Below, one piece after another: positions 18,626-22,933 of a stretch of 64,000 nt of DNA (position 1 is the first letter of the stretch; every line of letters begins with the position of its first letter). The position numbers were made by a program, and so were the translations under genes. The DNA lies in the NCBI RefSeq assembly GCF_900128485.1, contig NZ_LT635859.1:391242-455241 (forward strand). Reading direction: 5' to 3'. The stretch comes from Duodenibacillus massiliensis. Lineage in GTDB: Bacteria > Pseudomonadota > Gammaproteobacteria > Burkholderiales > Burkholderiaceae_F. Below the pieces are notes generated by a model that did no database searches, was not told the origin of the DNA, and saw nothing but the letters and a program-made list of their open reading frames with translations.

Positions 18626-18958
18626 TCAGAAGGGGAGCTTGAACCCGGGGGGCAGCGGCAACCCCGCCGTGGCTTCCTTCATCTTCTGCTGCGAAAGGGC
18701 CTCGGCCTTGTGCGCTGCATCATTAATGGCAGCTGCCACGAGGTCTTCGAGCATTTCCTTGTCATCAGGATCGCCCGAAAGAAGCTTCGGATCGATTTCA
18801 ACGCGCCGGGCTTCGTGCTTGCAGGTGATCGTGATTTTCACGGCGCCCGCACCGGCTTCACCGGTCACTTCAATGTTGCCGAGCTCAGCCTGAAGGCGCT
18901 CAACGTTTTTTTGCATTTTCTGGGCCTGCGCCAGCAGTCCCTGAATGTTTCCACGCAT
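18626..18958 (-). CDS. ybaB: YbaB/EbfC family nucleoid-associated protein
   Basis: A 110-residue small DNA-binding protein that forms tweezer-shaped dimers and coats the nucleoid. Typical features are the [12 protein letters not shown] coiled helix, the central [18 protein letters not shown] strands and the [15 protein letters not shown] tail. It lies directly downstream of dnaX, the conserved position in proteobacteria; its start overlaps the tau extension of dnaX by 59 bases. AAGGAAACAGA precedes the ATG. Confidence 0.93.
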
Positions 18959-19448
18959 AAGTCTCTGTTTCCTTAATTTCAGCGTCCGTCATATCCCTCA
19001 CCGAGGCATCAATGACTTTCGCCTGTAGTAGCTGCACGCATTTTTGCACAAAAGGATCACTTTTGAAGGCCGTGATCATCGCAAGACGCGCCTTTCGCCG
19101 TTCCGTTTCCACTAAAAGTGAGACGCTTGGCTCATCCTGAGATCTTTCCCGCGGCGCAAAATGCACGGCAAAGGGGTGTCCGAGCGCTTTCTCGAGGGCC
19201 TCACGGATTTCCTGCTGAATGGCTTCGTTGACCAACGTCTGTGAGGCAACCGCCAGGAGCACGTGATGGTCATCGAGCTCATCCACGGCGCTTGAAGCGG
19301 CCACTTCTTTTGCCAGTCCCTTAAGACTGGTTCTGCACAGCAGTTCGCGCCAGTTAAGCAAAAGCGCCGAAGGGTGGACTTCCTGCGGAAGCGGTATCAC
19401 CTCAGGGCTTTTGGTGTGCAGTGACTTAACCGGCGCCGTGCTCTCCCC
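18900..19448 (-). CDS. dnaX: DnaX tau C-terminal extension, reached only by a frameshift
   Basis: This frame continues DnaX after the zero-frame stop at 19426 and carries the tau-specific C-terminal region (about 180 residues), including [20 protein letters not shown] and [16 protein letters not shown]. It has no credible start of its own. To join it, a ribosome at GGG (19449-19447) must move +1, or one G must be lost from the G5 run at 19445-19449. The joined protein would be about 616 residues, in the normal tau range. It overlaps the ybaB start, consistent with translational coupling. Confidence 0.8.
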
Positions 19449-20751
19449 CGTCGTCCTCCCAGGGCGGCGGCATATCCGAAATGTTGGGTTCGACAATGTC
19501 GGGTTCATGCACCGCCGGTGGTTCAGCGATTTCAGGAGCAACCTGCGGTTTAGGTTCTGCCGGCGGAACCGGCGCCGCGGCCGCAGTAGCCGTTGCCGCA
19601 GGAGTCGTTGCCGTTTCCTTCTTTTCCGGTACCTTAAGGCCGAGGCGCGTTCCCGCCGGCCTAAACGCCATCATCCGGAGAATGGCCATCGTAAAGCCGG
19701 CATATTCGTCCGGCGCGAGCGGCATATCGTTGCGTGCCTGCAGTGCAATCTGGTAATCGAGCTGCACTTCTTCCGGGGTCATGGCTTTTGCCAGAGCCCT
19801 GATGCCGGCAGACGTCGTGTCTTCATCGTCCAGAAGTTCCGGCACACGCTGTACCAAAGCCACGCGGTGCAAAAGCCCCGCCATCGCCCGCACGGCTTCC
19901 GTGTAGGAGAGCCCTTCGGAACCCAACTTTTCGGCTTCAGCAAGCGCCGCCTGCGTGTTGCCGGAAGCCACATGCATCATGAGGTCAACAAGGGCCTCGT
20001 CCCCGATGACACCCAGCATTTCACGCACAGATTTAAGTGTCACGGGGCCCGCTGCATAAGCAATTGCCTGATCCAGAAGGCTCAACCCATCGCGCATGGA
20101 ACCGCGCGCGCATTTACCGAGCAACAAAAGGGCTGATCGTTCGGCTTCGATTCCCTCTTGCTTGAGAATATTTTCCATGTGATCGGCCACGGCCTGCGGC
20201 GACATATTGCGCAAGTTAAATTGCAGGCAGCGGGAAAGCACCGTCATCGGCACTTTCTGAGGATCGGTTGTAGCGAGAATGAACTTCACATACTCCGGCG
20301 GCTCTTCCAGGGTCTTTAACATGGCGTTAAAGGCATGCGTTGTGAGCATATGCACTTCGTCGATCATGTAGACCTTGTAGCGGCCCTGCGTGGGAGCGTA
20401 CATCGCGCGCTCCAAAAGCGCGGTCATCTCTTCAACGGAGCGGTTGGAGGCCGCGTCGATTTCGATGTAATCAACGAAACGCCCTTCGTCAATCGCCCGA
20501 CAGGCTTCGCACTTGCCGCAGGGGTGCGAGGTCACGCCCCCTTTGCCGTCTTCTCCCGTGCAGTTAAGGCACTTCGCAAGAATACGGGAGAGCGTTGTCT
20601 TACCCACGCCGCGCGTGCCGGTAAAAAGGTAGGCATGATGCAGACGGTTTTCGTCCAGTGCATGCTTAAGTGCCGCAACAACGGCATCCTGACCGACCAT
20701 ACTGTCAAAGTCATGCGGACGCCATTTGCGGGCAAGTACCTGGTAGCTCAT
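19426..20751 (-). CDS. dnaX: DNA polymerase III subunit gamma (gamma/tau gene, zero frame)
   Basis: A 441-residue clamp-loader ATPase. The Walker A motif GTRGVGKT is at 45-52; zinc cysteines lie in CLNC and the CxxCxxC cluster (78-84); YMIDEVHML is the Walker B block, and LSRCLQFNLR is the SRC box. After an Ala/Pro-rich linker (about 375-425) the zero frame stops at TAA 19428-19426. It is therefore gamma-length: ATPase, lid and clamp-loader domains, without the tau tail that contacts DnaB and DnaE. The SRP RNA gene lies directly upstream. Confidence 0.93.
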   Translation of the reverse strand: MSYQVLARKWRPHDFDSMVGQDAVVAALKHALDENRLHHAYLFTGTRGVGKTTLSRILAKCLNCTGEDGKGGVTSHPCGKCEACRAIDEGRFVDYIEIDAASNRSVEEMTALLERAMYAPTQGRYKVYMIDEVHMLTTHAFNAMLKTLEEPPEYVKFILATTDPQKVPMTVLSRCLQFNLRNMSPQAVADHMENILKQEGIEAERSALLLLGKCARGSMRDGLSLLDQAIAYAAGPVTLKSVREMLGVIGDEALVDLMMHVASGNTQAALAEAEKLGSEGLSYTEAVRAMAGLLHRVALVQRVPELLDDEDTTSAGIRALAKAMTPEEVQLDYQIALQARNDMPLAPDEYAGFTMAILRMMAFRPAGTRLGLKVPEKKETATTPAATATAAAAPVPPAEPKPQVAPEIAEPPAVHEPDIVEPNISDMPPPWEDDGGEHGAG

Positions 20752-21189: not shown

Positions 21190-22933
21190 CTATCTGTCGT
21201 TTTTTTCAAAATATCTCCTCCAAAAGTTTTCGGTAGTCAACTTCTCAAGTTGGGTTTCGTATTTCTTATTACAGCATCTGAATTTCATAAAAATTCTCAA
21301 CCCCATACAAAAGTTCCGAAAAAATGACTTGATAATTTCTATTTTATTATGACGAAAGCATGTCATCACGCCCGCATCATTGTTATAACAATAGCAATCA
21401 CGATAAAAACATGTTAACTTCCAAGTTAATGGCTGCCATTTTTTTACAAAAGCTCTGCTCCCTAAAAGAAAACGAGGCAACAATGCACAATTTAAAGATA
21501 TCTTTCTCATTGGACTCATCCAAAAACGCTTCTTCAACATCTTCTGAGGAAACTCTGTAAAGGGAATAACATGATCAAATGCAGGGATATCCTGCAACTC
21601 CCCTCTAAACTTCTCCCCCGTCATGTCTTCAGCAAATAAGTTAGTTTTACACAATATATCCTGATACGCTTTATAGGTTGCATAGGACAAAGCATAGTTA
21701 TAAGAACCTACGCACCCTCTGTTTTGAGATACAAAAAGTCTGAACCAGGATCTCGCAGATGCTCTTTTGGCGTAAATTGAAATAATCAACTGAGAGCGAG
21801 CAGACAAATATTGCGTAAACACTGATTCCTTATTTGAAAAACTGTCAACCCATGTAGACACTCCGAGGAGCGTAATAATTTTTAAATTATTTTGCAGAGA
21901 AAAAAGAATATCATCACCACGGACAAAAAACGGAAAGGGATAGTGACTAATGGATTTCACAGAAAACGAAAAAAAACACCAGGCCCCATAATTAGCCGAG
22001 TACCCAAGGCTATCCATTACTGTTAAATCGTCAATAGAACCAGCATTTTTCTTTTGAAAAACACCAAACCATCCTCGCTCGCTCCAACGCCCACCTGCTT
22101 CCAATACCGTGACAGGAAAATTCTCATCAAATAAAATTCCGCTTATGCCCATTGATCGATCATCAACAACATAAGACCAGTAAGCATAAGTTCTTTTAAT
22201 ACTTTCCTCATGGCAACTAGCATCATCATCCATAAAAAGACAATGGCTAAAACCATTATCTTTCAGATATAGCAAACCTCGAGCAAAGCCCCCCCGAACC
22301 TCCAACATTTGTATTAGGTATCAAATAGACTTTGTCATTACTTTCCAGTTCATGCCTAGTCAAGTTTTTAGAATTATCAACTACCACCAAATAAATATTT
22401 GAATATCTCGTATCGTTTAAAACATCTTGGCAAATACGATGGACCGCAGGTATCACGTATTTTTTTCGATTGAAGTGTGTTATCACCAACCCCAACTTAA
22501 TGTCTCTTCTAGTTGGTTCGTTTGTAAAAAAACCACCACCAGATATCTCACCATCACTGATAGCTGTAACACTGACAAAAACCAGTCCTTGCTCCAGGCC
22601 TTCCCAAAACGGCATGTCAATGCAAGCCTCATCTGCTTCCAATGATACCTGGTGATCTCCCAACCAAAGAATCGGCTTATACGCCTTTTGCAAACCAAAT
22701 CTGACGATAAACTTACCGCTACCTCTTATCTTCATAAAAACATGATTAATTCCACATTCTTTTTTCCATGTTTTTACGGATAAAGAATTGAAAAACGTAT
22801 TAAATAATTCTTCCTGCCCCTTTCTAAAATACAGTGTTTTATTCCTTTTATCACAAACTGCATTGCCGCGGTAGAAAAGATCATGTGCTTCTATGCCTTG
22901 ATCTTGTTCAAAAGTTATATTTTGGAGAATCAT
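21190..22933 (-). pseudogene. GlfT2-like galactofuranosyltransferase, frameshifted in a G7 tract
   Basis: Two overlapping frames together encode one GT2-family enzyme of about 580 residues resembling galactofuranosyltransferase GlfT2. The N-terminal beta-domain and the motif PNTNVGGSGG are in one frame (22933-22256). The continuation FARGLLYLKDNG, the catalytic metal motif LFMDDDA and the C-terminal half are in the other (22308-21190). The break lies in seven Gs (22289-22295 as C). With six Gs the active-site loop reads NVGGSGGFARG without interruption. The gene is AT-rich and stands alone, which suggests horizontal origin. It is either phase-off, decayed, or a sequence error. Confidence 0.82.

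Follow-up and report, generated by a model that had tools for sequence, protein, structure and literature searches.

The dnaX locus

We analyzed dnaX in a 64,000-nucleotide (nt) stretch of the 2.35 Mb genome of Duodenibacillus massiliensis (contig NZ_LT635859.1, positions 391,242 to 455,241; hereafter the window), where the gene lies on the minus strand and starts at 20751. Its zero-frame open reading frame (ORF; 19426..20751) comprises 441 codons and closes at a TAA stop at 19426-19428. The encoded protein corresponds to the gamma form, with domains I-III and the linker, and matches DnaX N-terminal models (TIGR02397, 417 bits; Pfam domain III, PF12169). The tau domain V region follows on the same strand in the +1 (equivalently -2) frame (18900..19445), extending from GAG at 19443-19445 to TGA at 18900-18902. 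Three full-length DnaX models match this other-frame ORF with their C-terminal portion, and its PF12170 (tau domain V) score of 28.3 bits falls just under the 28.8 cut-off, a value exceeded by the tails of six of the eight relatives tested and missed by the other two. Differences within the genus at the three codon positions of the tail frame (0.385, 0.275, and 0.539) are highest at the third. The clamp-loader ATPase part and tau domain V lie within one gene region, as in a dnaX with two products, and a tau protein that joins them is predicted to comprise 617 amino acids (aa) if the frame is changed by -2, or 616 aa if by +1, a difference of one glycine. A sequence-only reading of the window had proposed a gamma-length zero frame followed by a tau tail in the +1 frame, with a tau of about 616 residues; the 441 aa of the former and its coordinates are confirmed, and the predicted tau lengths agree with its estimate.

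In its passages on dnaX, a 2016 review describes two clamp-loader subunits that arise by a -1 frameshift, RNA polymerase slippage, or proteolysis, and a reversed dnaX in some bacteria (PMC5009743). With the gamma stop placed in the zero frame just after the frame junction and the tail in another frame, the window gene has the reversed arrangement.

Conservation of the frame split

The frames of the ATPase part and the tail differ by +1 in all 10 genomes of the window's genus that were searched. An identical split occurs in the sister genus g16, which is probably Sutterella, in 11/11 genomes with both matches on one contig, as judged by local tblastn directly for six of these and from printed translations for the remaining ones; three g16 assemblies are single contigs. 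In a twelfth g16 genome, dnaX extends over two contigs, the tail contig bears the same junction site, and the phase was taken from a near relative. Because genomes of the genus and the sister genus have the same arrangement, sequencing error is ruled out. A wider family search of 67 genomes returned an N-terminal DnaX match in 61 and a tail match in 46. Among the other 39 dnaX-matched family genomes, 36 have open frames of at least 533 aa, long enough for a continuous tau, and three have short open frames (418, 253, and 262). In addition, 104 loci without a frame split were read locally, some of them being one genome held in two collections; 87 contain the zero-frame stop, and 86 of these 87 exceed 510 aa. 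The exception (L019), on a Massilia contig, has an in-frame stop after 411 dnaX codons, within the linker and near the contig end.

Assembly error or an ordinary frameshift mutation, in a cell with either a continuous tau or gamma alone, is an explanation to which we give almost no credence. A single-nucleotide homopolymer change is a common error, and one locus (L110; G057:C1, near 335376) has a further frame break within the tau tail, such that tau would end early, perhaps itself through an assembly error. However, the split and the octamer at its junction are common to genomes of two genera with domain V kept in the other frame, and for the group this explanation is already refuted by the comparison of relatives. 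The sequence-only reading would have regarded four G at the junction as evidence for a continuous tau; that condition applies to the window genome only, as 17 of 22 sequences have four G together with the same split.

In a DnaX tree of 49 rows, the 21 shifted sequences fall on one side of a modestly supported branch (77/72; 78% of bootstrap trees), and form a well-supported group together with the continuous genera g2 and g14. A single origin of the frame split is likely on this evidence.

The slippery site

At the junction (19441..19449, minus strand), the zero frame reads GGG GGA GAG. Comparison among relatives, the check suggested with the sequence-only reading, reveals the motif nGG GGR GAR (nGGGGRGAR) in 22/22 sequences of the two genera, its last eight positions forming the octamer. 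Columns 2-5, 7, and 8 are invariant, column 6 is A in 20 and G in 2 (second codon GGA or GGG), column 9 is G in 18 and A in 4 (third codon GAG or GAA), and column 1 accepts any base (C 10, T 8, G 3, A 1). Since the zero-frame residue at nGG varies between W, R, and G, the GG is conserved at the nucleotide level. GGA is the rarest glycine codon in the gamma parts (38/535), yet occupies the site in 20 of 22 sequences. The motif occurs in the same phase at none of 9167 other codon positions in 21 gamma ORFs, and in zero phase after codon 340 at 3 of the 104 non-split loci (L016, L035, and L120, the first and last of which look like one genome). After the site, the new frame reads G-E-(S/N), or G-G-S in the GGG variant. 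A likeness to this trans-frame sequence in genus g7 (R-G-E-P-L-A-P-I-K at CGG GGG GAG) was dropped as probable chance because its distance to the tryptophan presumed to belong to domain V is about 12 residues and not about 30.

The zero-frame stop begins 9-21 nt past the first base of the site in 21/21 sequences, and immediately after GAR in five of these. In one genome, the new frame, followed upstream, meets its first stop after just 26 nt; the shift must therefore sit at or near the octamer.

The G run at the site, which in the window is G5 (19445-19449), comprises four G in 17 sequences, five in 3, and six in 2, and this distribution bears on transcription as the source of the second frame. 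If RNA polymerase dropped one G in a proportion of mRNAs, as in Thermus, ordinary translation would yield tau, and one G fewer than the window's five does make the tau frame continuous. However, the long homopolymer that such slippage would use is missing, with four G in 17/22 sequences, and the reversed dnaX genes so explained in the relevant section of a 2013 survey carry 7-10 A (PMC3711429). Furthermore, the covarying stem described below, which lies at ribosomal spacing, would lack a role. We consider polymerase slippage very improbable.

A further possibility is that ribosomes re-initiate after gamma termination to produce a separate domain V protein, with GGGGAG as the ribosome-binding site. 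The duplex between the site and the anti-Shine-Dalgarno sequence has an energy of -7.5 to -9.3 kcal/mol, the gamma stop follows closely, and GTG occurs at about the same codon in 5 of the 10 genus sequences. Against these points, 8 of 21 sequences have no ATG, GTG, or TTG between the site and domain V and no start codon is common to more than about five of the 21, making separate initiation of the tail unlikely; in addition, the new-frame proteins resemble one another (G-E-S/N, A-P-V) from the octamer onwards. We consider re-initiation very improbable as well.

Shine-Dalgarno-like sequence

Upstream of the site, GGGAGGA (19454..19460, minus strand) resembles a Shine-Dalgarno (SD) sequence, but also supplies the codons of W-E-D, and would be at most an optional stimulator. 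Four bases (CGAC) separate it from the G5 run, and the end of its GGAGG core is 8 nt from the proposed P-site codon. Of 21 sequences, 13 have an upstream motif of the GGAG/GAGG type, which precedes the P-site codon GGR of the -2 model described below by 8-12 nt. This spacing resembles that of the backward-shifting E. coli dnaX, unlike that of prfB. By duplex energy, the stretch upstream of the site is superior to almost every linker window (fraction 0.08 or less) in only 10 of 21 sequences. A close-spaced SD as a conserved stimulator was rejected, as close spacing is not kept in the relatives.

The sequence-only reading had described an inverted design, with gamma by default and tau by recoding, and had attributed the recoding to a short-spaced SD that drives a +1 shift or to polymerase slippage on G5. 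The design itself is supported and conserved over two genera, and the G5 run, GGGAGGA, and four-base gap are as described. Of its mechanism, recoding and the frame relation stand, whereas neither the SD, which is embedded in codons at a spacing that is not maintained, nor slippage on G5, given the run lengths above, is supported by the comparison; the +1 direction now appears less likely than -2.

A covarying RNA stem downstream

The account above had no place for a downstream structure, which provides what we regard as the strongest evidence for a ribosomal shift. In the window, the 5′ arm of stem 1 (19425..19436, minus strand) starts 4 nt past the putative A-site codon and contains the gamma stop; the 3′ arm (19347..19358, minus strand), identified by alignment, covariation, and folding, also codes L-N-W-R at the start of tau domain V. 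The stem has 12 base pairs (bp) here. Across the 22-sequence alignment, it begins 4-6 nt past the third codon and has 12 bp in 9 sequences, 11 in 11, and 10 in 2, with the 3′ arm formed by the L-x-W-R codons at the domain V start. Pairing is found in 94.3% of 264 cells, compared to 85.5% in shuffles and 20.8-42.0% in slid controls. Cells changed on both sides number 31 compared to 10.1 in shuffles, and the covariation score is 0.374 compared to 0.210; in all, three of five covariation measures exceed all 500 shuffles. Like the frame split, its conservation, and the invariant octamer, this covariation is a property of the sequences themselves.

RNAalifold, without a supplied structure, recovered 11 pairs of stem 1, five with double changes. 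Restricted to the genus (10 sequences), its prediction also contained a second helix of ten pairs; of the resulting 21 pairs, 11 have double changes. The 5′ strand of this genus-level helix 2 (19404..19413, minus strand) lies 11 unpaired nt past the 5′ arm of stem 1, and the 3′ strand (19359..19368, minus strand) directly adjoins the 3′ arm. The folding energy of the window segment 19347-19440 is -39.1 kcal/mol (z -3.38), below that of every one of 200 shuffles. When only 75 nt downstream were folded, stem 1 was not seen in the window's genus because its 3′ arm is further away; longer stretches revealed it.

A covariance model of the signal gave one match in each of the 22 genomes, the same genomes being those used to build it. 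The stem model did not match at the motif copies of L016, L035, and L120. Under strict filters, 5 of 300 genomes in an order sample matched, all from the two genera, and 1 of 398 in a phylum sample, the window's own. An Rfam scan of 19000-19800 returned three matches (E 4.6-8.9), all far below gathering scores, and no dnaX element up to E 10. At g16 loci (for example L091:1868-1942 and L105:1455-1550), the unpaired stretch past the 5′ arm carries CTCC to CTCCCC, or TTCCC in one case, which could pair with GGGGAG of the slippery site; this was not seen in the window's genus.

Mechanism and direction of the shift

Three features, namely the invariance of the octamer, the usual spacing of the stem behind it, and the lack of a start codon common to the tails, together argue for programmed ribosomal frameshifting as the source of tau, and this is the firmest statement that the comparison would support. 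More specifically, we consider it quite probable that gamma is made by default and that tau arises at a programmed frameshift signal, probably by a -2 slip. Ribosomes that keep the zero frame would produce gamma, ending at TAA. A fraction would pause at GGG GGA GAG owing to the long-range stem 4-6 nt downstream, aided in part of the relatives by the SD-like sequence 8-12 nt upstream. In a slip of two bases backwards, peptidyl-tRNA-Gly would exchange GGA for GGG and tRNA-Glu would exchange its GAG for another GAG that overlaps it, and the slipped ribosomes would continue in the tau domain V frame to yield the 617-aa tau. We infer the translational nature of the shift from sequence, and likewise its direction, the role of the SD, a gamma:tau ratio, and a cellular need for tau.

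Several features make a -2 slip more likely than a +1 slip. P-site re-pairing of GGR to GGG is available in 22/22 sequences and A-site re-pairing of GAR to GAG in 20/22, being weak in two. A -2 slip leaves exactly the first base of the site free, and would also be in keeping with the conserved GAR, with a spacer of 4-6 nt counted from GAR, with the 8-12 nt distance of SD-like motifs where they occur, and with the likeness to phage Mu (CGG GGG CGA). The window genome encodes tRNA-Gly UCC, CCC, and GCC, and tRNA-Glu UUC and CUC; therefore both -2 re-pairings are possible, as is +1 re-pairing on GGG.

A number of observations weigh against this reading. The same frame would be reached by a +1 slip from nGG to GGG, and in the window GGG re-pairs fully to GGG in the presence of tRNA-Gly CCC. 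In 2 of 22 sequences, the site is TGG GGG GAG, where a -2 slip would bring the A-site tRNA-Glu onto GGG with a G-U pair in the middle. Eight of 21 sequences lack an SD-like motif. For stem 1, two of the five covariation measures do not exceed the shuffles: further pair types number 8 compared to 10.8, and double-change pairs 6 compared to 4.7 (109 of 500 shuffles as high).

In addition, three g14 lineages with a continuous tau have largely the same stem arms at the corresponding position (L015:4306-4388, L125:1430-1512, L126:1124-1206, L097:1878-1939, L017:4324-4409). The arms are GCCAGTTGAG with CTCAACTGGC in one lineage and GCCAGCCGAG with CTCGGCTGGC in another, and have one mismatch in the third. 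These matches are weak (E 0.06 to 4.8), and at E 0.1 the covariance model matched none of three g14 genomes. The stem may predate the frame split, or may be left over from a split that g14 has lost. Furthermore, the g14 linker (W-x-x-x-x-P-V/A-E) has the length of the +1 product, the -2 product being one residue longer. Two side observations concern these arms. They show a compensatory difference between two lineages, and in L015 the -1 frame stops, by eye, at a TGA within the 5′ arm, which would fit an E. coli-like gamma; no slippery site for such a gamma was seen in L015.

The principal competitor is a programmed +1 frameshift, in which the P-site tRNA on nGG slides one base forward onto GGG during the wait at the rare A-site codon GGA, the stem (and the SD where present) acts as stimulator, and tau has 616 aa. 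Full re-pairing in the window's species, the rarity of GGA, and the linker length shared with g14 are all in its favor. Moreover, pairing at just two positions is enough for the +1 site UCC_U, according to a passage in the 2024 description of a frameshift prediction tool (PMC10885494). Nevertheless, the first base is T or C in 18/22 sequences, which would leave a first-position mismatch after the slip, and the conserved GAR would be left unexplained. Where present, SD-like motifs lie 5-9 nt from nGG, and the A site would hold the sense codon GGR in every sequence, with a stop directly after GAR in few. We regard a +1 shift as a possible but doubtful alternative to the -2 slip.

Neighboring features

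The next gene downstream (18626..18958, minus strand, from the ORF list), which we take to be ybaB/ebfC-like, starts within the end of the tau frame, giving an overlap of about 58 nt (18900-18958); some relatives seemingly have the same arrangement. Elsewhere in the window (22256-22308), an ORF of 225 aa and one of 372 aa, both on the minus strand and in different frames, overlap at a seven-G run near 22289-22295, looking as if run length switched one gene. No Pfam match was obtained at E 0.001 for either part.

Comparison with known systems

The E. coli-type dnaX undergoes a -1 shift at A_AAA_AAG, with an SD-like sequence upstream and a hairpin downstream. The signal described here shares the gene, a slippery site, a conserved stem a few nt downstream that may act as a stimulator, and, in part of the relatives, the upstream SD-like sequence. 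It differs in that the product of the shift would be tau and not gamma, in the +1/-2 direction, and in the slippery sequence, no A_AAA_AAG site inside a continuous tau ORF being found here. In addition, the stem arms lie tens of nt apart (69 loop columns in the alignment, fewer in the sister genus), and the 3′ arm is made of tau domain V codons.

In prfB, some 3 nt separate the SD from the shift codon, and the A site holds a stop codon. Part of the relatives studied here likewise have an SD-like sequence ahead of the change to the +1 frame; however, there is no A-site stop at GGR, the SD is neither conserved nor close-spaced, and a stem lies downstream.

A parallel to the -2 slip is phage Mu, a known -2 case. 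Its tail-chaperone frame has CGG GGG CGA close to its end, presumably at the shift point and similar to the G-rich CGG GGA GAG here; tRNA-Gly can re-pair to GGG two bases back. Unlike the phage tail gene, the present case involves a chromosomal replication gene with a re-pairable GAR and a conserved downstream stem. Phage Mu, arteriviruses, and Trichomonas vaginalis virus 1 are the -2 examples named in the relevant passage of the 2016 review (PMC5009743), and a Burkholderia phage paper repeats -2 for Mu in the passage cited (PMC2628397). The 2024 prediction tool omits -2 in the part of its description cited here (PMC10885494).

Reversed dnaX genes form a GeneTack cluster in the section of the 2013 survey that describes it, comprising 17 genes from 12 genera with -1 shifts; 12 of these have runs of 7-10 A, and transcriptional slippage is given as the cause (PMC3711429). 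The window gene resembles this cluster in its zero-frame gamma, and in a tau that would be obtained by recoding across two ORFs. In contrast to the -1 relation (at the DNA level) on poly-A in the cluster, the frame relation here is +1/-2, and the G-rich site has no A run or other long homopolymer and is accompanied by a covarying stem. Among the matches listed in the open-access literature, we found no paper on such a dnaX case, and novelty is claimed against these only.

Implications

The present case adds a reversed dnaX gene whose tau would need a +1/-2 shift. It is rather likely, in our assessment, that a chromosomal housekeeping gene here employs -2 tandem slippage (GG_GGA_GAG) with a long-range covarying stem, on which all tau and replisome coupling would depend in two genera of gut Burkholderiales. 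To our knowledge, a -2 frameshift in a cellular gene would be without precedent, as would a dnaX of such a kind. Annotation may label such dnaX genes as short or broken. If true, this conserved chromosomal -2 case, with its 22 natural variants, would provide a ready system for the study of two-base backward steps.
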